Assembly: GCF_029167645.1 (NCBI RefSeq)
Contig: NZ_CP119147.1
Coordinates: 3,782,001 to 3,846,000, forward strand
Reading direction: 5' to 3'
DNA: 64,000 nt
Source of the DNA: Streptomyces sp. AM 2-1-1
Lineage (GTDB): Bacteria > Actinomycetota > Actinomycetes > Streptomycetales > Streptomycetaceae
Shown here: positions 580 through 7,900 of the stretch, piece by piece
Position numbering within the stretch: the stretch's first letter is position 1
How the letters are laid out: every line of letters starts with the position of its first letter
Made by a program: the position numbers and the translations under genes
Notes under the pieces: generated by a model
Database searches by the model: none
What the model was told of the DNA's origin: nothing
What the model saw: only the letters and a program-made list of their open reading frames with translations

Positions 580-740
580 GGCGGCGACAGATCTTGGGCT
601 GGCTGTCCACGACGATGGCGGCCCGGTACCAGCACGTGACGGGCGGGATCCCCGCCGACGTCGCTCAGTGGGTCGGGCTCACCCGAAAGTGGCCCACGAG
701 GCCGACGGCAGCGGCGCGAAGAGGTCCGAAGAGTCTCGTT
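580..740 (+). pseudogene. 3' remnant of a tyrosine site-specific integrase
   Basis: One plus-strand frame across about 590-690 reads ILGWLSTTMAARYQHVT followed by GGIPADVAQWVGL. This matches the C-terminal catalytic block of actinobacterial phage/AICE tyrosine recombinases, in which the Tyr of ARYQHVT (codon at 627-629) is the nucleophile. Nothing resembling the rest of the roughly 400-residue enzyme is present upstream, where the DUF4287-like gene sits. The frame stays open to 935, straight through the neighbouring att repeat. An integrase ending next to an att site is the normal arrangement, so I read this as the decayed end of an element that used the same tRNA-Ser site. It is not functional. 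Confidence 0.65.
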
Positions 741-767
741 GAGACTACGGATGAGACCGGGAACGAA

Positions 768-799
768 GAAGGGCCTCGCAGCAAGCTGCGGGGCCCTTC
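768..799 (+). terminator. Hairpin between integrase remnant and left att repeat
   Basis: A 14-bp stem (768-781 with 786-799; one G-T pair) with a CAAG loop directly abuts and partly enters the left copy of the tRNA-Ser repeat. A closely related, even stronger hairpin lies at the same place beside the right copy (7301-7340). Confidence 0.65.
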
Positions 800-878
800 G
801 ACGTATTGCCTGGTGAGAGCAATGGCGGAGGATACGAGATTCGAACTCGTGAGGGGTTGCCCCCAACACGCTTTTCAA
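795..878. repeat. Left att-like direct repeat (tRNA-Ser 3' fragment)
   Basis: Positions 795-878 match 7332-7415 in direct orientation over 84 bp with two mismatches (at 811 and 875); the run 812-874 is identical. Bases 826-878 correspond to the tRNA-Ser(GGA) 3' half, from the discriminator base to the anticodon loop. The match stops after 878. This is the signature of site-specific integration into the 3' part of a tRNA gene, here on the minus strand, so the displaced 3' end lies at lower coordinates. Confidence 0.85.
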
Positions 879-1020
879 ATGTTCGTGTGGGGGTCCGGTG
901 GGGGGCGTAGGTGTCCTGACCTGGTGCGGAGCTGAGGGTGGCGGCACCTTCGAACGACGTCGGACGGGGGTGAACGAGACCAGAACTGAGACCATCCGAG
1001 CGAGGGCCCCGTCGGTACGG

Positions 1021-2379
1021 TCACTCCTCCTGGAGACGGATTGCAAGCACGGTCCCGTCGGCACGGATGGACACCGCGCTCCACTCTTTCGCTGTGCTGC
1101 GGCCCGGCCACTGGTCTCGGCGTTCGTGTACTTCGCGTCGATACTCGTTGACGCGCCCGTGGTGGAGGTGCGTGTACAGGCTCTTCTCGAGTCCGGAGAA
1201 AGCCTCCACGCGGGTGCCGTTGAGGCGGTAGATGTGGTCGGTGCCGACGAAGTCGATGTCGTGGATGCGGTGCTCCGCATCTCGCAGTCTGTCGCTGTTG
1301 GCGTGGACGTCGTGCTGGAAGTGGCGCCGCCCTTGCTCCTTGGTCAGGTACTGGGCGGTGGGTTTGCCACCTCCGGTGAAGGCGGTCAGCGTGGCCGCTT
1401 CTGTCCGTGCCAGCACGGTGCTGAACCAGTTGAACGACTCAGGCAGTACCTGGAACCCGGGGATGGTCGTCCGTTCTCGTTCCGCGTTCCGTACGACGTC
1501 GGCCACGCGGTTCTCCTGGCCCAGGGTGAGGTCCAGGTCGACTTCTGAGGTCTCTCCGGACGGGCGGAGGACGGTCGTGCCCGGCGCCTCCAGGATGTGC
1601 AAGGCGAGACTCTCCTTCTTGGGGATCTCCGTTCCGATGAGCAGGTACGGCACGGTGGTGTAGGGACCAATGTGAACGGACTCCACGTGGGCACCGGCCG
1701 TGCTGAGTTGCTTGTGCACCTGCTGAACGCTGCTGTGGGTGCCCTTCGAGGAGACGAGGAGGACCTTGGACGGCTGCCCCGGTTGCCAGGCTTCGACGAA
1801 GAAGTGGGGCCGTCGTTGCAGTGGTTCCGGGCGGGCGCCCGTTCCGGAGGTACTGCGGAGGGCCCAGCCGGCCTTCAGAGCGACGTCCGCGGGAATCACG
1901 GAGACCGAGTGGTCGGGGTACCGCGACCTGATCAATTCCTCGGCCAGCAGCGAGGCGAAGCCGGTGCCGATCTCCCCGGACTGCGTGGCCTTGTAGAAGC
2001 GCAAGAGATCGCGTCCTTCAGAGGACAGCTGCAGGTAGTCGCCTTGGTTGCCCTCCAGGGCCTGGATATAGCGCAGACTTCCCCAGTGCTCGGCCAATCC
2101 TCGTCCTGCGCCCTGCCGGGCCGAAGCGGCCCCGAGGCCGATGGCGTGAATGACCTGCCAGGGCGTGAGGGTCAGCGAACGTGGCGCGTTTCGGACAGCC
2201 CTGTAGTCGCTGCGCCGGCGAAGCGGTCCCTGCCCGTTGTCTATCCGCTTCTCGTCCTCGTCCTCCGCGGCCCCGGCGACGTGGGCGGCCAGCTCGGTGG
2301 ACGAGCGAACCTGAACGTGTGAAGTCTTGCTCAGCTCGTGGAGGATCTCGCTGACAGCCTTGGATTCGTCCTTGTTCAC
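1021..2379 (-). CDS. Orphan protein of the tRNA-Ser island
   Basis: I do not recognise this 452-residue protein. It appears soluble, with no signal peptide or obvious membrane segment. The N-terminal 60 residues are charged and probably helical (SEILHELSKTSHVQVRSSTEL). A central segment (HFFVEAWQPGQPSKVLLVSSKGTHSS) alternates strands with a Lys-Gly step reminiscent of restriction-like nuclease cores, but I cannot name a catalytic set, so no activity is assigned. The GTG at 2379 has a GGAAGG ribosome site 6 nt upstream; the in-frame ATG at 2409 has none. It is divergent from the six-gene operon starting near 2500, with only about 120 bp between them, so the two are probably co-regulated or functionally linked. 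Confidence 0.75.
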   Translation of the reverse strand: MNKDESKAVSEILHELSKTSHVQVRSSTELAAHVAGAAEDEDEKRIDNGQGPLRRRSDYRAVRNAPRSLTLTPWQVIHAIGLGAASARQGAGRGLAEHWGSLRYIQALEGNQGDYLQLSSEGRDLLRFYKATQSGEIGTGFASLLAEELIRSRYPDHSVSVIPADVALKAGWALRSTSGTGARPEPLQRRPHFFVEAWQPGQPSKVLLVSSKGTHSSVQQVHKQLSTAGAHVESVHIGPYTTVPYLLIGTEIPKKESLALHILEAPGTTVLRPSGETSEVDLDLTLGQENRVADVVRNAERERTTIPGFQVLPESFNWFSTVLARTEAATLTAFTGGGKPTAQYLTKEQGRRHFQHDVHANSDRLRDAEHRIHDIDFVGTDHIYRLNGTRVEAFSGLEKSLYTHLHHGRVNEYRREVHERRDQWPGRSTAKEWSAVSIRADGTVLAIRLQEE

Positions 2380-2499
2380 CGTTGACCTTCCGTCGACGCC
2401 GACTGGCATGAGCCGAAGGACGGTAGGCCGCGGCAGGGGAGCGCACTCAAGTGCGCACGAGGGGCGCAGGTTGGGAACCTGGAGATGGGCGGGACGATG

Positions 2500-2808
2500 A
2501 TCCCCGTCCGCATTCTGACCCTCGACGACGTCACAGTGCTACGACCGACCGACCACTCCGCGGTGTCGTCAGCGGATACCCGGTGGCAGGGCACCCTCCA
2601 TCTGCCCCACGGGCTCCGCCCACGACCTGTTCCGGCAGACCTGCGAGAGACGGCAGTGAGCGAGGGGCGGTCCCTGGAGGCCCTGGACGAGGCGGAACTG
2701 CGCTACGTCCTCACTTTCCTGGCCGAATCGACGACGACCACCATTCGGCAGGCCCGCGTCGAGGCCATCGTCTCCGCTCTCCCCATGGTTGCGAGGAGCC
2801 CCCGATGA
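2500..2808 (+). CDS. Orphan small protein, first gene of the island operon
   Basis: About 102 residues of unknown family. The N-terminal half looks like short beta strands and the C-terminal half like two helices (LEALDEAELRYVLTFLAE and TIRQARVEAIVSAL). The start is uncertain: ATG at 2500 follows a GGGCGGG stretch, while ATG at 2485 sits directly on a GGAG motif with no spacing. The TGA overlaps the ATG of the next gene in an ATGA junction (2805-2808), so the two are translationally coupled. It could be a small adaptor or a substrate-binding partner of the enzymes that follow, but nothing in the sequence proves this. Confidence 0.65.
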   Translation: MPVRILTLDDVTVLRPTDHSAVSSADTRWQGTLHLPHGLRPRPVPADLRETAVSEGRSLEALDEAELRYVLTFLAESTTTTIRQARVEAIVSALPMVARSPR

Positions 2809-3469
2809 CAGAAGCTCCCCCCTTCCTGGTCACCGTCGACGTCGGTGGAACGCTCGGCTCTGCCGACGGGCCCGGCTTGGCCATGCGGCTGGCCGAAGCA
2901 TCCCCGCTACCCGCAGGGCGTGCCCGCGAGGTCATGCGGACCAGCCTCCACACCCACCCGGCACTCACCGATCCCGTGGTCGCCGACGTCTGCGAAGCCT
3001 TGCGCATACCCGTGCACGCCTTCCCCCGTGACCTTCCGCCCGCCCCGTTCCGTCTCTTCCCCGGCACGATGCGGGCCCTGCGCCAGATGAGCGCAGTAGC
3101 CACCGTGGCCACCCTGTCCAACGTCACGTGCATCGACGCCGATACCGAGGGACTGCGCGACCTCCTCTCGCCCTGGGTGACCGACTTCTTCCCCTCCTGC
3201 CGCATCGGCTATACGAAACCCGACCCGCATGCCTTCCAGGCAGTCATCGAGCATTTCGGTGCGCAGCGCGATCAGGCCATCCATGTCGGTGACGACTGGG
3301 CCTGCGACATCGAGGGAGCTGTCGCGTCAGGAATCCGTCCCGTATGGATATCCCGTGGACGCCAAGCCCCGACGAAAACATGGTCGTTGAACATGGCGTG
3401 CTGGTCGCCATCGACCTTCCGGCAGCCGCCGAACACATCACCCACCTCGCAGCAGGGACGCCCCAATGA
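2805..3469 (+). CDS. HAD-superfamily hydrolase-like protein with a frameshift near its end
   Basis: HAD-like protein. Motif I is VDVGGT with nucleophile Asp12, but the usual second Asp two residues later is Gly14. Motif II is LSN, motif III is the Lys of YTKPDP, and motif IV is GDDWACD. Loss of the motif-I acid/base Asp argues against a standard phosphatase. The reading frame drifts at a CCCC run (3367-3370). One more C would give a natural tail, DENMVVEHGVLVAI up to LAAGTPQ, ending in TGA at 3467-3469 and overlapping the ATG of the methyltransferase. As given, the frame runs to 3569 through the next gene with an unnatural Pro/Arg-rich tail. It is either a real one-base deletion, a sequencing error or, less likely, a programmed shift. 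Confidence 0.8.
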
Positions 3470-4272
3470 GCCTCTTCACCGGAACCACTGCCTACTACCG
3501 ACAGTTCCGCCCCGGCATCCCCGACGCCGTAGCGTCGATCCTGGACCAGGCGGCTCCCGCACGACCTGACGGCGGTCGCCGGCTTCTGGATGTCGGCACG
3601 GGGACGGGGCTGGTGGCCGAAGCCCTGCTCGAACGCTTCGACGACATCATCGGCATTGACAACGACGCCGACATGCTCGCCGCCGCCGAGACGGCCCTGC
3701 GCCCGAAACTGCCCGCAGGCTCCCACCTCGCACTTGTGGAGAGCACTGCGGAGGACTTTGTCCCGCCCACTGGTTGGCAAGCCGAACTGGTCACGATCTG
3801 CCGGGCTTTCCACTGGCTCGACCAGGCCACGGTCCTGAACCTCCTGGACAGGCAGGTGGCCCCGGACGGCGCGGTCGCGATCTTCGGGGACAACAGCTTC
3901 TGGGCGGCGGGCAGCGACTGGAAGGAGGCGACCCGAGACGTCGTCAAGAGCTTCCTCGGCGAACAGCGGCGCGCGGGATCCGGGACCTTCCAGCACCACA
4001 ACCGCCCCTACAGCGAGATCATGGAGGAATCGCCGTTCAACGCGGTCGAGGAATTCCGTGTCCCGGTCGAGCGCACCTGGAGTGCTGACAGCATCCTCGG
4101 CTACCTCTACTCCACCTCCTTCGCCGCCCCGCACCTCTTCGGCGGCCGGTTGCAGGAGTTCGAGGCCGCCCTCAGGGAACGACTGGCCGACTTCAGCGAC
4201 GACGACACCTTCCCCGAGGAGAACGAGTTCCTCATCCGTCTCGGTCGGCGTGGTCAAGATGCCGGCCGGTGA
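3466..4272 (+). CDS. Class I SAM-dependent methyltransferase
   Basis: A 268-residue protein with a Rossmann-type SAM site: motif I RRLLDVGTGTGLVAEALL near residues 38-55, an acidic residue after the second strand (IGIDNDADML), and a motif IV-like segment ELVTICRAFHWLD. The AFHW segment is typical of the small-molecule methyltransferases related to Methyltransf_11/25. The substrate is unknown. Its ATG overlaps the corrected end of the HAD gene (ATGA), and its end overlaps the next start by 14 nt, so it is translated as part of the operon. The C-terminal 100 residues (about 170-268) form a variable helical cap, probably shaping the substrate pocket. Confidence 0.85.
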   Translation: MSLFTGTTAYYRQFRPGIPDAVASILDQAAPARPDGGRRLLDVGTGTGLVAEALLERFDDIIGIDNDADMLAAAETALRPKLPAGSHLALVESTAEDFVPPTGWQAELVTICRAFHWLDQATVLNLLDRQVAPDGAVAIFGDNSFWAAGSDWKEATRDVVKSFLGEQRRAGSGTFQHHNRPYSEIMEESPFNAVEEFRVPVERTWSADSILGYLYSTSFAAPHLFGGRLQEFEAALRERLADFSDDDTFPEENEFLIRLGRRGQDAGR

Positions 4273-5053
4273 GCAGCGGCGGAGCTTTGGAAAGCTCACT
4301 GGTCCGCAAGTCACGGCGGACGTGGGCGATCGGTCGGTCATCTGCCTGCCGGTCGGTTCGCTGGAACAGCACGGCCCCCATCTGCCCCTCAACACCGACA
4401 CCGTCATCGCCGAGCGATTCGCCGCGCGCCTGGCCGCACACGTCGCGGACCGGCACGACCTGTGGGTCGTGCCGCCCGTGCCGTACGGACTGTCCCCTGA
4501 GCACACCTGGTCACCCGGCACGATCACGCTGACTATCCCGCTCTACGCCGGTCTGATTGAAGCCCTCGTGGGGGAGTACCTCCGCGCGACACCTGCACGG
4601 GCCGTGCTGATCATCAACGGCCATGGCGGAAACAAGGGCGTCCTGGAAGCCCTCGTCCACCAGTTGCGGCGTACGCACGACGCGCCGATCTGCGTTGCCA
4701 ACCCCGCTTCTCTGGGCGTCGCTCACCGCGAGGACGACGCTGCCTTTCCCGAAGTCCACGCAGGCAACCGGGAGACGGCTCTCATGCTGGCCCTCGCCCC
4801 TGACCACGTACGGCTGGACCGACTGCCCGACGAGCCCACTACAGACCTCGGCCGGCGCGAGGAGATCCAGAGCATTGTGCTCGGCCGGGGCACGACCTGG
4901 CCCTGGTCCTCGGACGATCCCGCGATCTCGGCACACGGCGTCATCGGGGGCGATCCCCGGCGAGCCACCGTTGAGCACGGCCAAGCGCTCGTCGCTGCCG
5001 CCCTCGATGCCGGCACGGACATCCTCGACCGCCTCACCCCGCGGATCGACTGA
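4259..5053 (+). CDS. Creatininase-family metal-dependent amidohydrolase
   Basis: A 264-residue member of the creatininase/MftE/ArfB family of metal-dependent hydrolases acting on C-N bonds. Visible family motifs are GSLEQHGPHLPLNTD (residues about 33-47, metal-binding Glu36, His38 and Asp47), NGHGGN, and HAGNRETALM with its metal-binding Glu. Family members open creatinine, deformylate pyrimidine intermediates or trim peptides; which applies here cannot be read from sequence. The ATG at 4259 is the first start that keeps the family N terminus and overlaps the methyltransferase end by 14 nt. Sixteen bases separate it from the dioxygenase gene. Confidence 0.88.
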   Translation: MPAGEQRRSFGKLTGPQVTADVGDRSVICLPVGSLEQHGPHLPLNTDTVIAERFAARLAAHVADRHDLWVVPPVPYGLSPEHTWSPGTITLTIPLYAGLIEALVGEYLRATPARAVLIINGHGGNKGVLEALVHQLRRTHDAPICVANPASLGVAHREDDAAFPEVHAGNRETALMLALAPDHVRLDRLPDEPTTDLGRREEIQSIVLGRGTTWPWSSDDPAISAHGVIGGDPRRATVEHGQALVAAALDAGTDILDRLTPRID

Positions 5054-5069
5054 CGTACGGAGGAATCCC

Positions 5070-5837
5070 ATGAGTCTCACGACCGAGGACAAAGCCACCT
5101 TCAAACGGGACGGCGTCCTGATACGGCGCGGCCTGGCCACCCCTGACCACGTCCGGCAAGCCATTTCCGTCATCGCGAAGTCGTACCGCGAAGGGATGGC
5201 ACCCGAGGACATACCTGCCTACTCCCGGCGCACCTTCACTCCGGAGCTGGGTGACAGCGCCGAACTCCTCAGCCTGTACACGCAGACCGGTGCGGCTGGC
5301 CTCGCCGCTGATCTGCTCGGTGCGACGGCTCCGATCCTCACCGCGCAGGTCCAGATCCGCGTGCCCGAAGCCGAGTTCCCCGGCGTCCAGCAGGTGAAGG
5401 CCATGCACGTCGACGGCGTCTCCTGCCCCCACCTGGATCCGCAGGAGCTCCGCACGTTCTCCCTGCTCGTCGGCGTCGTCCTCTCCGACATCAACGAACC
5501 GCGCTGTGGTGCCCTGCACTACCTGCCCGGCGGCCACATCACCATGGCCCGTTGGTTCTCCGAAGAGTGGTCGCTCGGCGTGACCGACCAGGTTCCGCCA
5601 GAGATCGACAGCGAGGACGGCACCGCGTTCCTCGGCCGGCCAGGGGACGTCCTGCTCATGCACCATCTCGTCCCCCACACCGTCGGCCAGAACCTGAAGC
5701 CGTTTCCCAGGGTGATGGCCTATTTCAGGGTCAGTCACCCCGACCACGCGGGCCGTCGGCTCGAAGCCCTCCGCGACCCCTGGCTTGACTACCCGCCCCT
5801 GGCAGATCTCCCCTTCGCTCCCGACGTCAAGGAGTAG
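5070..5837 (+). CDS. Phytanoyl-CoA dioxygenase (PhyH)-family Fe(II)/2-oxoglutarate oxygenase
   Basis: A 255-residue double-stranded beta-helix oxygenase. The Fe(II) site is visible as the HxD motif in AMHVDGVSCPH (His113, Asp115) and a distal His in LLMHHLVPHTVGQN (residues 198-203), with an Arg (214 or 220) for the 2-oxoglutarate carboxylate. PhyH enzymes hydroxylate or halogenate small molecules, and are frequent tailoring enzymes in natural-product pathways. The ATG at 5070 has a GGAGG ribosome site 5-6 nt upstream. It is the fifth gene of the operon, 16 nt after the creatininase gene and 4 nt before the YrdC-like gene. The substrate is unknown. Confidence 0.88.
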   Translation: MSLTTEDKATFKRDGVLIRRGLATPDHVRQAISVIAKSYREGMAPEDIPAYSRRTFTPELGDSAELLSLYTQTGAAGLAADLLGATAPILTAQVQIRVPEAEFPGVQQVKAMHVDGVSCPHLDPQELRTFSLLVGVVLSDINEPRCGALHYLPGGHITMARWFSEEWSLGVTDQVPPEIDSEDGTAFLGRPGDVLLMHHLVPHTVGQNLKPFPRVMAYFRVSHPDHAGRRLEALRDPWLDYPPLADLPFAPDVKE

Positions 5838-5841
5838 AAAC

Positions 5842-6492
5842 ATGCGCATCATCCGACCCGAGGCACTCGACAGTGCGGCCCGCGCCGTCGAGGCCGGCGA
5901 GCTGGTCATCGTTCCCACCGCCCGCTGGTACATGATCTGCGCCGACGCGAGCAATGCCGACGCGTCGGGCAGCATCTTCAAGGGCAAGAAGCGCCCCAGT
6001 GCCAAATCCCTCGCTTACGTCGCCCCGTCCCTGGCGGTCTGCGACCAGCACTTCCATCTCAGCGATGAGGCACGGCGACTCGCTGAGTCGTTCTGGCCTG
6101 GCGACCTTGCTCTGCTCCTGCCTTGGCGGAGCTCGGAGGACGCATCCCGGCATGCCTCAGTCGGCTCCCCCGCACTCACCACGGTCGCCCCCGGAGTCCT
6201 CGGCGAACTGGCCGCAAGGGCGAAGGTGCCCATCGCCGCGACGACGGCGAACATCTCAGGCGACGCCGGCCCAGACGATCTCGGGCCCGCCATCGCCCTG
6301 GATGAAGTGCACGCCTTTCTCGCTGCCTCGGGCCTCAGGGTCTCCGTACTCGTGGACGGCGGGGTCTGCCCGGCTGCAAACCACATGACGATCGTGGACT
6401 GCTTCACTCCCGAGACGAAGCTCGTGCGTACTGGTCTCGTCCACCAACGGGCCGTTGCCGCTGCCCTTGGGCGGGAGATCAGGGCGTCGTGA
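5842..6492 (+). CDS. YrdC/Sua5-like protein, last gene of the island operon
   Basis: A 216-residue single-domain protein of the Sua5/YciO/YrdC family. The RNA/nucleotide-binding cleft signature is visible as IVPTARWY near residue 25 and FKGKKRPSAKSLAYV near 50-64, and the C-terminal half has IAATTANISGDAGPDDL. Housekeeping Sua5 makes threonylcarbamoyl-AMP for tRNA t6A. A second, operon-embedded copy usually serves another carbamoylation or adenylylation step, as in antibiotic carbamoyltransferases; that is inference here. A GGAG site overlaps the upstream stop region. No housekeeping tRNA-modification partners are nearby. It is probably not the essential t6A enzyme of this strain. Confidence 0.85.
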   Translation: MRIIRPEALDSAARAVEAGELVIVPTARWYMICADASNADASGSIFKGKKRPSAKSLAYVAPSLAVCDQHFHLSDEARRLAESFWPGDLALLLPWRSSEDASRHASVGSPALTTVAPGVLGELAARAKVPIAATTANISGDAGPDDLGPAIALDEVHAFLAASGLRVSVLVDGGVCPAANHMTIVDCFTPETKLVRTGLVHQRAVAAALGREIRAS

Positions 6493-6734
6493 CGCACTTA
6501 CCGCGCCGCCGTGGCCGACGTGCATCGAGCACGGCGGCATCGCTATGCCCGCTGACCGGATCGATGTGCGCGCAAGGCCCTGTTCCGGCATCCGCCAGTT
6601 GCCCCGCGCGAGGATAAGCGCATGACTAGGTGCAATTCAGACAAAAGCCCAGGTCATACCCGGTGATTCCGGGTGGTTCAGAAATGGTCCTGACAGCACG
6701 AATCGGGCCTGACGAGAAGTGAAGGAGCTGCATC

Positions 6735-7295
6735 ATGTATGACTGCGAGGGATGCGGACGGTCCCGGCAGGGACTGTTCTTCGGCTCCGGGATCGGCGAA
6801 GCGAAGTGGTGGTGCTGGGGCTGCCAGAGCACTGACCAAAAGGAACTGATCGGCTCTCTGGCTGACCGCGCCCGGGGCGTGCTCAGCCGTGATGCTGACG
6901 GCGTGCACTGGCCCTACGGCCCGAACATCTACGTCCAGATGCGCGCGGACCTGCTGGACTGGGCGGACCGGCACGACCTCAAGAGCGGCGACACGGGGTG
7001 CTCGTCTGGGCTCCACTGGCTCGACAAGGGCCGCTGCGCCAAGAGGGACTGCCACGGCAAGCCGGGGTTCTACGACCACACCACCACGTGGCTCTCCCGA
7101 ACCACCGGCAGGCCCGCTCTGGTCTTCAATCAGCCGTACGGGCAGGTGCACCCGGCCGAGGTTCGGGAGTCCGTCAATGAGTACCCGTCTCTCACGGCTG
7201 AGGTTGAGCCAGAGAGTTGGTACGGCGGGGGCACCACCGGTGTCTACATCTGGAATGACGGCAACCGCTCCGACGCTGTGCGGGCGCCACGATAA
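6735..7295 (+). CDS. Cys-rich orphan protein next to the right att repeat
   Basis: A 186-residue protein I cannot assign. The N terminus carries two CxxC pairs (CEGC at about 4-7 and CWGC at about 32-35) spaced like a zinc ribbon. The middle has HWLDKGRCAKRDCHGKPGFYDHTTTWLS, with more possible metal ligands. A GAAGGAG ribosome site lies 8 nt upstream of the ATG, supporting a real gene. It ends 6 nt before a 19-bp hairpin and about 40 bp before the tRNA-Ser repeat, the position where an integrase normally lies. It may be a mobile-element DNA-binding protein; this is inference. Confidence 0.7.
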   Translation: MYDCEGCGRSRQGLFFGSGIGEAKWWCWGCQSTDQKELIGSLADRARGVLSRDADGVHWPYGPNIYVQMRADLLDWADRHDLKSGDTGCSSGLHWLDKGRCAKRDCHGKPGFYDHTTTWLSRTTGRPALVFNQPYGQVHPAEVRESVNEYPSLTAEVEPESWYGGGTTGVYIWNDGNRSDAVRAPR

Positions 7296-7300
7296 CCGTA

Positions 7301-7340
7301 CGTCGAAGGCCCCCGCTGCAAGCAGCGGGGGCCTTCGACG
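7301..7340. terminator. Perfect 19-bp hairpin between island and tRNA-Ser
   Basis: 7301-7319 pairs perfectly with 7322-7340 around a 2-nt AA loop. It can terminate the Cys-rich gene (plus) and the tRNA-Ser transcript (minus). It overlaps the start of the right direct repeat, mirroring the hairpin at 768-799. Confidence 0.8.
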
Positions 7341-7415
7341 TATTGCCCGGTGAGAGCAATGGCGGAGGATACGAGATTCGAACTCGTGAGGGGTTGCCCC
7401 CAACACGCTTTCCAA
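7332..7415. repeat. Right att-like direct repeat inside tRNA-Ser
   Basis: Partner of 795-878 (84 bp, two mismatches). It contains the 3' half of the intact tRNA-Ser gene, so the tRNA remains functional after integration. The two repeats delimit a segment of about 6.5 kb. Confidence 0.85.
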
Positions 7416-7447
7416 GCGTGCGCCCTAGGCCACTAGGCGAATCCTCC
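7363..7447 (-). tRNA. tRNA-Ser(GGA)
   Basis: An 85-nt class II tRNA with a 7-bp acceptor stem (GGAGGAT with ATCCTCC), a long variable arm (GTTGGGGGCAACC), the T-loop GTTCGAATC and anticodon GGA in loop TTGGAAA. CCA is not encoded. It is the integration target of the island to its left. Confidence 0.95.
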
Positions 7448-7591
7448 GCCGCAAACAATACAAGACGTTGAGGGGTGCTCGCGAACACGTTCCCGGCAAG
7501 ATCGTCGGGACGGGGTCGCGGGGTCGGGTCGGGGGGACCTCGGGGCCGGGCGGGTGGACCTGGAGGGGTGGGGATCCGCTAAGGTGGGTGT

Positions 7592-7680
7592 CAGCCCCTC
7601 ACGTGGCGCTATCTGACTGAACTCCCCCAGGGCCGGAAGGCAGCAAGGGTAGGTTGGCTCTGGCGGGTGCGTGGGGGGCC
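7592..7680 (+). ncRNA. ffs: Small signal recognition particle RNA (4.5S type)
   Basis: The conserved SRP RNA apical hairpin, with GGCCGGAAGGCAGCAAGGGTA around 7631-7651, is present. The flanks (CCCCTCACG at the 5' side, CGTGGGGGG at the 3' side) can pair into the long terminal helix. The RNA joins Ffh in co-translational membrane targeting. Location just upstream of dnaX is the usual actinobacterial arrangement. Ends are approximate to a few bases. Confidence 0.9.
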
Positions 7681-7900
7681 CTTTGCGTTCCCGGGGCGGT
7701 GCTGTCGGGCTCGGGTCGGGGGCGGTTCGACGCCGGCGCTTCCGGGCGGTTCGAACGGCCGCGCACCGCAGCGGCCCGGAGATGTGATCTACCTCTCCCT
7801 CGCCCGGCCGTCGGCCGGCGTGGCCGGTGTGACCAGGGTCCCCGGTCGTGAGGGCTCGGAGCGGAGTCGGTTGTCGGTGCGTCCCGATAACCTCGTAACT

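Follow-up and report, generated by a model that had tools for sequence, protein, structure and literature searches.

Distal genes of a conserved nine-gene operon on a tRNA-Ser island of Streptomyces sp. AM 2-1-1, with a YrdC-like enzyme probably acting on an acceptor other than threonine and a possible self-protection methyltransferase

Sua5 of P. abyssi binds ATP through K56xR58 and S143xN145 and threonine through T33, S181 and R195, as excerpts of PMC10321239 describe, and a YrdC/TsaC-like domain is also contained in TobZ (excerpts of PMC10321239) and in GdmN (PMC9633730). Here we describe a free-standing YrdC-like gene and its neighbors in a stretch of 64,000 nucleotides (nt) from Streptomyces sp. 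AM 2-1-1 (contig NZ_CP119147.1, positions 3,782,001 to 3,846,000; the whole stretch is called the window below), a strain whose genome (G000) comprises 7.2 Mb in 2 contigs. The YrdC-like gene is the last of six coupled genes. With reasonable though not high confidence we read these genes as the truncated distal part of a nine-gene operon that most likely makes a small metabolite; the window copy is probably non-producing and its methyltransferase (MT) may serve self-protection. The novelty is in the complete nine-gene operon, in the YrdC subfamily and in the pattern of MT survival rather than in a unit of six genes.

All six reading frames (2485..6492, plus strand) were confirmed in the window. 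The fragment is laid out as follows:

2473..6492, plus strand: operon fragment, distal part of the conserved nine-gene operon, its left limit lying within a joint at 2470-2498
2485..2808, plus strand: orfA remnant, 107 amino acids (aa), without about 40 N-terminal residues of a family of about 148 aa
2805..3569, plus strand: HAD-family phosphatase-like protein (Pfam HAD families), frame shifted near the C-terminus
3466..4272, plus strand: S-adenosylmethionine (SAM)-dependent methyltransferase, MT (Pfam Methyltransf_11), a possible self-protection gene
4259..5053, plus strand: creatininase-family metal-dependent amidohydrolase (Pfam Creatininase)
5070..5837, plus strand: PhyH-type Fe(II)/2-oxoglutarate (2OG) oxygenase (Pfam PhyH), iron and 2OG residues invariant
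5842..6492, plus strand: YrdC/Sua5-family enzyme of the PTxRWYM subfamily, a probable N-carbamoyl-AMP former with an acceptor other than threonine

A sequence-only reading of this DNA had described six genes joined by ATGA overlaps or gaps of at most 16 nt. The frames and their coupling are real, with an ATGA overlap at the orfA/HAD junction, a 14-nt overlap between MT and the creatininase-type gene and gaps of 16 nt before PhyH and 4 nt before the YrdC-like gene, but HAD carries a one-base deletion compared with its relatives, its frame reaching 3569, that is 104 nt inside MT. In 8/8 relatives HAD is a single frame that ends in an ATGA overlap with MT. The window MT, creatininase-type, PhyH and YrdC-like genes are intact. 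The five enzyme families assigned at that time were confirmed by Pfam matches above cut-off, which are strong for Creatininase (192 bits) and Sua5_yciO_yrdC (86.1 bits) and moderate for Methyltransf_11 (42.9), the HAD families (about 35) and PhyH (31.3, cut-off 22). A scan of 2380-6800 for sigma-70-type promoters found none, which has little weight in Streptomyces.

Searching genome contigs with the PhyH protein gave eight loci, six from Streptomyces, one from Saccharopolyspora and one from 'Actinobacteria bacterium OK074'. The six-gene order is conserved, not scattered: it was found at seven of the eight, far beyond chance, and L015 is without the creatininase-type gene. Seven of the eight also carry three genes 5' of orfA and coupled to it, encoding radical-SAM-like (365 aa), phosphoketolase-like (683 aa) and enolase-superfamily (356 aa) proteins; L008 has no phosphoketolase-like gene, and its enolase-superfamily gene is short of 86 residues at the N-terminal end. 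The full order is thus radical-SAM-like, phosphoketolase-like, enolase-superfamily, orfA, HAD, MT, creatininase-type, PhyH, YrdC-like, and in all eight loci the operon is preceded by HAD, XRE/DUF5919, Nudix and HD genes. Among distinct close loci, 10/12 have the nine genes in this one order, namely L009-L014 (L009 being from S. aureocirculatus), L050 (G201), L051 (G290) and two plasmids, L081 of S. avidinii and L103 of S. goshikiensis (in L103 the count of nine comes from annotation only); the exceptions are L008 and L015. Three contigs came up twice, as L008/L040 (length 30477), L014/L052 (52917) and L015/L053 (117443), and each was counted once, and since L013 and G035 are probably one species and L011 and L012 close kin, the distinct loci are not all independent. 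An amino acid permease gene and a gene for a 313-aa protein were found 3' of several complete clusters.

More distant versions of the set were also found. A second type (L041, L042; 39-66% identity) holds genes of the radical-SAM-like, enolase-like, orfA, HAD, MT, PhyH, YrdC-like and phosphoketolase-like kinds, and L043 ends at a contig edge. In a third type (L046-L048) radical-SAM-like, enolase-like, HAD, phosphoketolase-like and MT genes match at 28-45%, together with a PhyH-like gene that is a different one by eye. G425, from another family of the same phylum, holds a contiguous but reordered set: creatininase-type, phosphoketolase-like, radical-SAM-like, orfA-like, PhyH, YrdC-like, a 392-aa protein, enolase-like, HAD, MT. 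Here the enolase-like match has an E-value of 3e-6, and the orfA-like match is weak and covers 34 columns only. Because G425 has the same functions in another order, it gives the strongest sign that they belong to one pathway. The 392-aa protein between the YrdC-like and enolase-like genes (L071 12684-13859) has no Pfam match and appears ATP-grasp-like by eye. The radical-SAM-like profile matched only 2/396 genomes across the phylum and the protein 16/295 genomes of the genus, and therefore the pathway seems rare and patchy, in the manner of secondary metabolism; homologues of single members were named from Kribbella, Kitasatospora, Micromonospora and Actinoplanes. In the open-access PMC literature (subscription journals and cluster databases lay outside the scope), none of the matches listed describes this gene set, in line with the earlier statement that no described pathway was known to have it.

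In the window the operon is cut. The 107-aa protein had been called an orphan; it is instead a 5'-truncated member of a family with 292 homologues (E<=1e-3, among 7996 scored candidates). orfA of relatives extends about 40 residues further at the N-terminus, and the window DNA upstream of 2485 is unrelated. Alignment of the DNA puts the joint at 2470-2498, as L009 matches 2473-6476 and L008 matches 2498-6492, and positions 768-2470, which include an attachment-site-like repeat and the gene that we call up462, form one block at 89.6% with G155. In tblastn the upstream three proteins had no match at a meaningful E-value in the window. In the strain's own genome no radical-SAM-like homologue was found at E<=1e-30 by protein or profile search, the only phosphoketolase is a distant 861-aa frame (37%, limit 1e-5) and enolase-superfamily matches do not exceed 30% (limit 1e-3). 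That the six genes are a whole pathway is thus unsupported, a complete six-gene operon was rejected because the upstream genes and the orfA N-terminus are missing, and an upstream half elsewhere in the genome was rejected since no close homologues of the first three genes were found.

To the remaining genes we applied a private-substitution ratio, a home-made nonsynonymous/synonymous count (not a fitted model) of changes that are private to one sequence at columns conserved elsewhere. For HAD (first 196 codons), MT, creatininase-type, PhyH and YrdC-like jointly the ratio was 0.141 in the window, compared with 0.118 in L008, 0.128 in L009 and 0.189 in L010. The window MT (0.059) is below all three of these relatives, and HAD (0.227), creatininase-type (0.151) and YrdC-like (0.105) are within their range. 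Judged by these ratios, a general relaxation is not visible in the window genes.

The YrdC-like protein matches the Sua5 structure (PDB 6f89 chain) with an E-value of 8.5e-21, and by this alignment the Sua5 binding residues were mapped onto 120 listed relatives of 300 matches. In these 120 the ATP site has K in 120, R in 120 and N in 81, with T (78), V (39) or S (3) at the Ser position. Of the threonine site, the T33 equivalent is kept in 115 and R195 in 120, while the S181 equivalent is replaced in 120/120 by Met, Leu, Thr or Ile. A PTxRWYM loop is present in 115/120, whereas the strain's own Sua5-type protein (L005) has PTDTVYG; in all, the genome encodes two other PF01300 proteins, one of them with this usual motif. 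The protein is thereby like TsaC/Sua5 in sequence family, KxR pair and equivalents of T33 and R195, and unlike it in the changed S181 equivalent and PTDTVYG loop and in its place within an operon of tailoring-type enzymes. It also scores below the NCBIfam equivalog cut-offs for threonylcarbamoyladenosine (t6A) synthesis (TIGR00057, 83.9 < 123.2; PRK10634.1, 34.3 < 175). Most source-named listed relatives bear the name L-threonylcarbamoyladenylate synthase or Sua5/YciO/YrdC/YwlC family protein. Because the threonine-binding Ser is lost although the ATP-site KxR is kept, the former name is probably wrong for the PTxRWYM subfamily. Its members are probably N-carbamoyl-adenylate-forming enzymes with an acceptor other than threonine. 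The earlier idea of carbamoyl-AMP activation by the YrdC homologue is thus retained, with a substrate that would not be threonine.

TobZ/GdmN-type carbamoyltransferases share the YrdC/TsaC-like domain, but the YrdC-like protein here is free-standing and a Kae1/TsaD-like domain was not found among the operon proteins. In G055 (L045, 10179-17285) a distant radical-SAM-like relative (46%) is located about 4 kb from a protein that by eye is like the NodU/TobZ-type carbamoyltransferases, and which perhaps replaces the YrdC step there.

PhyH 2OG oxygenases have an HxD...H iron site plus a 2OG-binding Arg, and the corresponding H113, D115, H203 and R214 are invariant in 11/11 sequences; weak PDB relatives are EvdO2 (E 0.00056) and ectoine hydroxylase (E 0.0051). 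For the creatininase-type protein the best NCBIfam model is MftE (TIGR03964). It shares the Pfam Creatininase family with MftE, but as the score of 137.3 bits is under the cut-off of 172, a mycofactocin creatininase was rejected. It also falls below the cut-off of 235 for creatininase itself, and after Gly-His it has Gly-Gly in place of the Tyr-Glu of the solved creatininase. The full-length orfA relative of L012 matched OmdA only with an E-value of 0.085 (13.3 bits, under the cut-off of 25.6), and the orfA model (pLDDT 83.1, pTM 0.60) had no PDB match at E<=1e-3. In the relatives, the phosphoketolase-like protein contains the XFP_N, XFP and XFP_C domains of phosphoketolases, but it is 683 aa long compared with models of 788-825 and scores 375.6 bits compared with a subfamily cut-off of 777; the gene is absent from the window. 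Several sources name the first protein of the relatives radical SAM. The usual radical SAM cluster motif is CX3CX2C; 119/120 listed relatives of this protein have CX2CX2C instead. Its model (pLDDT 82.5, pTM 0.84) has 17 PDB matches at E<=1e-3, six of which are radical SAM chains with a query TM of 0.35-0.43 (four of lipoyl synthase, the best at 0.41, SkfB and AprD4), the remaining ones being aldolases, lyases and other folds.

From these families a pathway can be sketched, in which both the reaction order and the product rest on inference only. The first three enzymes would assemble and rearrange a small phosphorylated skeleton, probably derived from a sugar, from which HAD would take off the phosphate. 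The YrdC-like enzyme would carboxylate and adenylate an amine, probably on an amino-acid-like intermediate, since its threonine site retains the Arg but not the Ser. The creatininase-type enzyme could hydrolyze an amide or cyclic amide, PhyH could hydroxylate or cyclize, and MT would modify the product or an intermediate and may also protect the producer. The window strain would then probably be unable to make the product alone, keeping at best late tailoring activities, chiefly that of MT.

Stand-alone survival was compared for MT, PhyH, YrdC and radical-SAM-like genes only (limits 1e-40, 1e-20, 1e-15 and 1e-30, respectively). Close MT homologues (>=77%) are present in 11/295 genus genomes and distant ones (38-55%) in 25 more. 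The 11 comprise six genomes with the cluster and its radical-SAM-like gene, the window genome, and four (G117, G244, G169, G164) with MT but without the cluster. These four have no radical-SAM-like, PhyH or intact YrdC-like gene genome-wide, and within 20 kb of MT the only other operon sequences are a YrdC fragment in G117 and the end of HAD in G244. Compared with L012, the loci of G169 and G164 (L098, L099) share a deletion that starts at the MT stop and reaches about 15290; that of G117 (L044) is a different deletion. A codon tree, in which the L050 MT was extended past its stop, put the MT-alone genes in three separate positions within the cluster MTs (supports 94, 96, 98/93). All four stand-alone MTs are open, with private ratios of 0.062-0.246 compared with 0.058-0.419 for cluster MTs. 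As a control, PhyH was found in 9/295 genus genomes. In addition to the window genome these are the six just described with the cluster and two that carry the second type, so that besides the window none has PhyH alone, and the window genome is the only one of the nine without a radical-SAM-like gene. YrdC matches occur in 12 genus genomes, those of G090 and G227 being only distant (36-37%), and radical-SAM-like remnants are fragments (306 residues of 365 in G225, 176 in G253 and 79 in G246). Because MT stays intact without the cluster in four genomes and PhyH never does, MT may be an immunity gene, a suggestion made from comparison of sequences.

More distant MT relatives, of about 51% (L100 8837-11807, L101, L102), are flanked by two APH-type kinases, and a plasmid relative (38.5%) has genes for phosphotransferases, for transporters of the MFS and ABC types and for GNAT and M15 proteins around it. 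These neighborhoods fit a modification or protection enzyme, short of proof. The plasmid array (L104, NZ_CP109456.1) as a whole holds an ABC transporter, HIT, phosphotransferases, MFS, Nudix, two methyltransferases, GNAT, M15 peptidase, FxLD methyltransferase and PIG-L, and resembles an assemblage of genes for the modification of drugs or metabolites. Relatives of the amino acid permease and of the 313-aa protein that follow several complete clusters occur in L100-L102 as well.

The window fragment is carried on an island at a tRNA gene, the features of which are:

763..885, strand not assigned: left attachment-site copy, a duplicate of the 3' part of tRNA-Ser(GGA) plus adjoining sequence
1021..2409, minus strand: up462, a 462-aa protein at the island's left end, without a match in Pfam, NCBIfam, PADLOC and PHROG scans
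6735..7295, plus strand: 186-aa protein within the island, no Pfam, NCBIfam, PADLOC or PHROG match
7300..7422, strand not assigned: right attachment-site copy, overlapping the intact tRNA gene
7360..7447, minus strand: tRNA-Ser (GGA), integration target, found by ARAGORN

The direct repeat 763-885 / 7300-7422 is 123 nt at 90% (111 nt at 93.7%), with a core of 39 nt identical in both copies where none is expected by chance. In G005, one of five relatives' loci compared, the site is empty, window 588-878 and 7300-7695 being contiguous. The island location proposed earlier is borne out by these repeats and the empty site, and the island is a 6.5-kb block of up462, operon fragment and 186-aa gene. 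No integrase was recognized among the proteins of 763-7300 by Pfam, NCBIfam, PADLOC and PHROG scans, up462 being uncharacterized. Matches to up462 occur in 48/295 genus genomes, the strain's own included, and an attachment-like repeat adjoins it in G000, G155 and G176 with differing neighbors; the family may mark an island hotspot at tRNA-Ser. In G155 up462 is followed by a gene that is HsdM-like by eye. The 186-aa protein has a Cys-rich N-terminus, and just left of the island, at 195-473, lies a DUF4287 protein (91 bits) whose DNA matches scattered sites in other genomes. A defence role, as also suggested earlier, is unsupported, since PADLOC gave only a partial MT-mad2 match (47.3 bits) and a HAD match of 13.3 bits. 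Phage cargo was rejected too, as viral contigs gave 13 pattern matches and none was related to the YrdC-like protein.

The truncated set could be a decaying remnant without function, MT included, in which the survivors are only a matter of time. The truncated orfA, the frameshifted HAD, the missing upstream genes, the raised single-gene ratios of PhyH and the orfA remnant and the losses that are common in the operon family (L008, L015, L044) are all in agreement with this, but four distal genes are intact, the window MT has a ratio of 0.059 and MT repeatedly survives intact elsewhere, and we regard such a remnant as unlikely. Alternatively, the four intact genes, with a joint ratio inside the range of complete clusters and carried on an island, could be a working stand-alone module. 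Neighbors with the full operon would release an intermediate or the product, which the module would capture and then tailor or detoxify. This we consider slightly less likely still, as orfA is truncated and HAD frameshifted, and as 8/9 genus genomes with PhyH have the radical-SAM-like gene, the exception being the window genome itself. YrdC-, MT- and PhyH-type enzymes occur in tRNA modification as well, and the YrdC family with its kept KxR pair would allow a threonylcarbamoyl-type adenylate, with MT and PhyH modifying a tRNA or nucleotide. The presence of two other PF01300 proteins in the genome, one with PTDTVYG, the replacement of the threonine-binding Ser in 120/120 listed relatives, the lack of a TsaD-like protein among the nine operon families and the patchy distribution make this very improbable.

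Several observations weigh against the preferred reading, that of a cut metabolite operon with a protective MT. The MT-alone loci came from an MT-based search, and the E-value limits differed between the genes compared. MT could also give a benefit other than protection. In G055 the radical-SAM-like gene, although distant (46%), is intact, and in the 20 kb around it no further cluster gene was found, which speaks against a strict contrast. For the radical-SAM-like protein the evidence from fold comparison is both weak and mixed. Moreover, the window PhyH ratio is 0.168 compared with 0.119-0.141 and that of the orfA remnant 0.176 compared with 0.065 and 0.080, and most substitutions in the window genes may be older than the truncation.

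A more far-reaching version of the cut metabolite operon can be put forward only tentatively, as we think it may well be wrong in part or whole: a new pathway to a small molecule, with a lone TsaC-like enzyme re-purposed for the N-carboxylation and adenylation of a new amino-acid-like acceptor, with MT as an immunity gene kept after repeated loss of the cluster, and with the window island as such a loss caught halfway.

The gene set has been seen as an operon in Streptomyces, in Saccharopolyspora, on two linear plasmids and in one distant actinomycete. If the preferred reading is right, it is a testable biosynthetic gene set without a description among the open-access matches listed, and it includes a TsaC-like subfamily, mostly labeled as tRNA-modification enzymes, that is without a key threonine contact. 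If the suggested role of MT is true, repeated survival without the cluster would be a pattern by which resistance genes of orphan clusters may be spotted.

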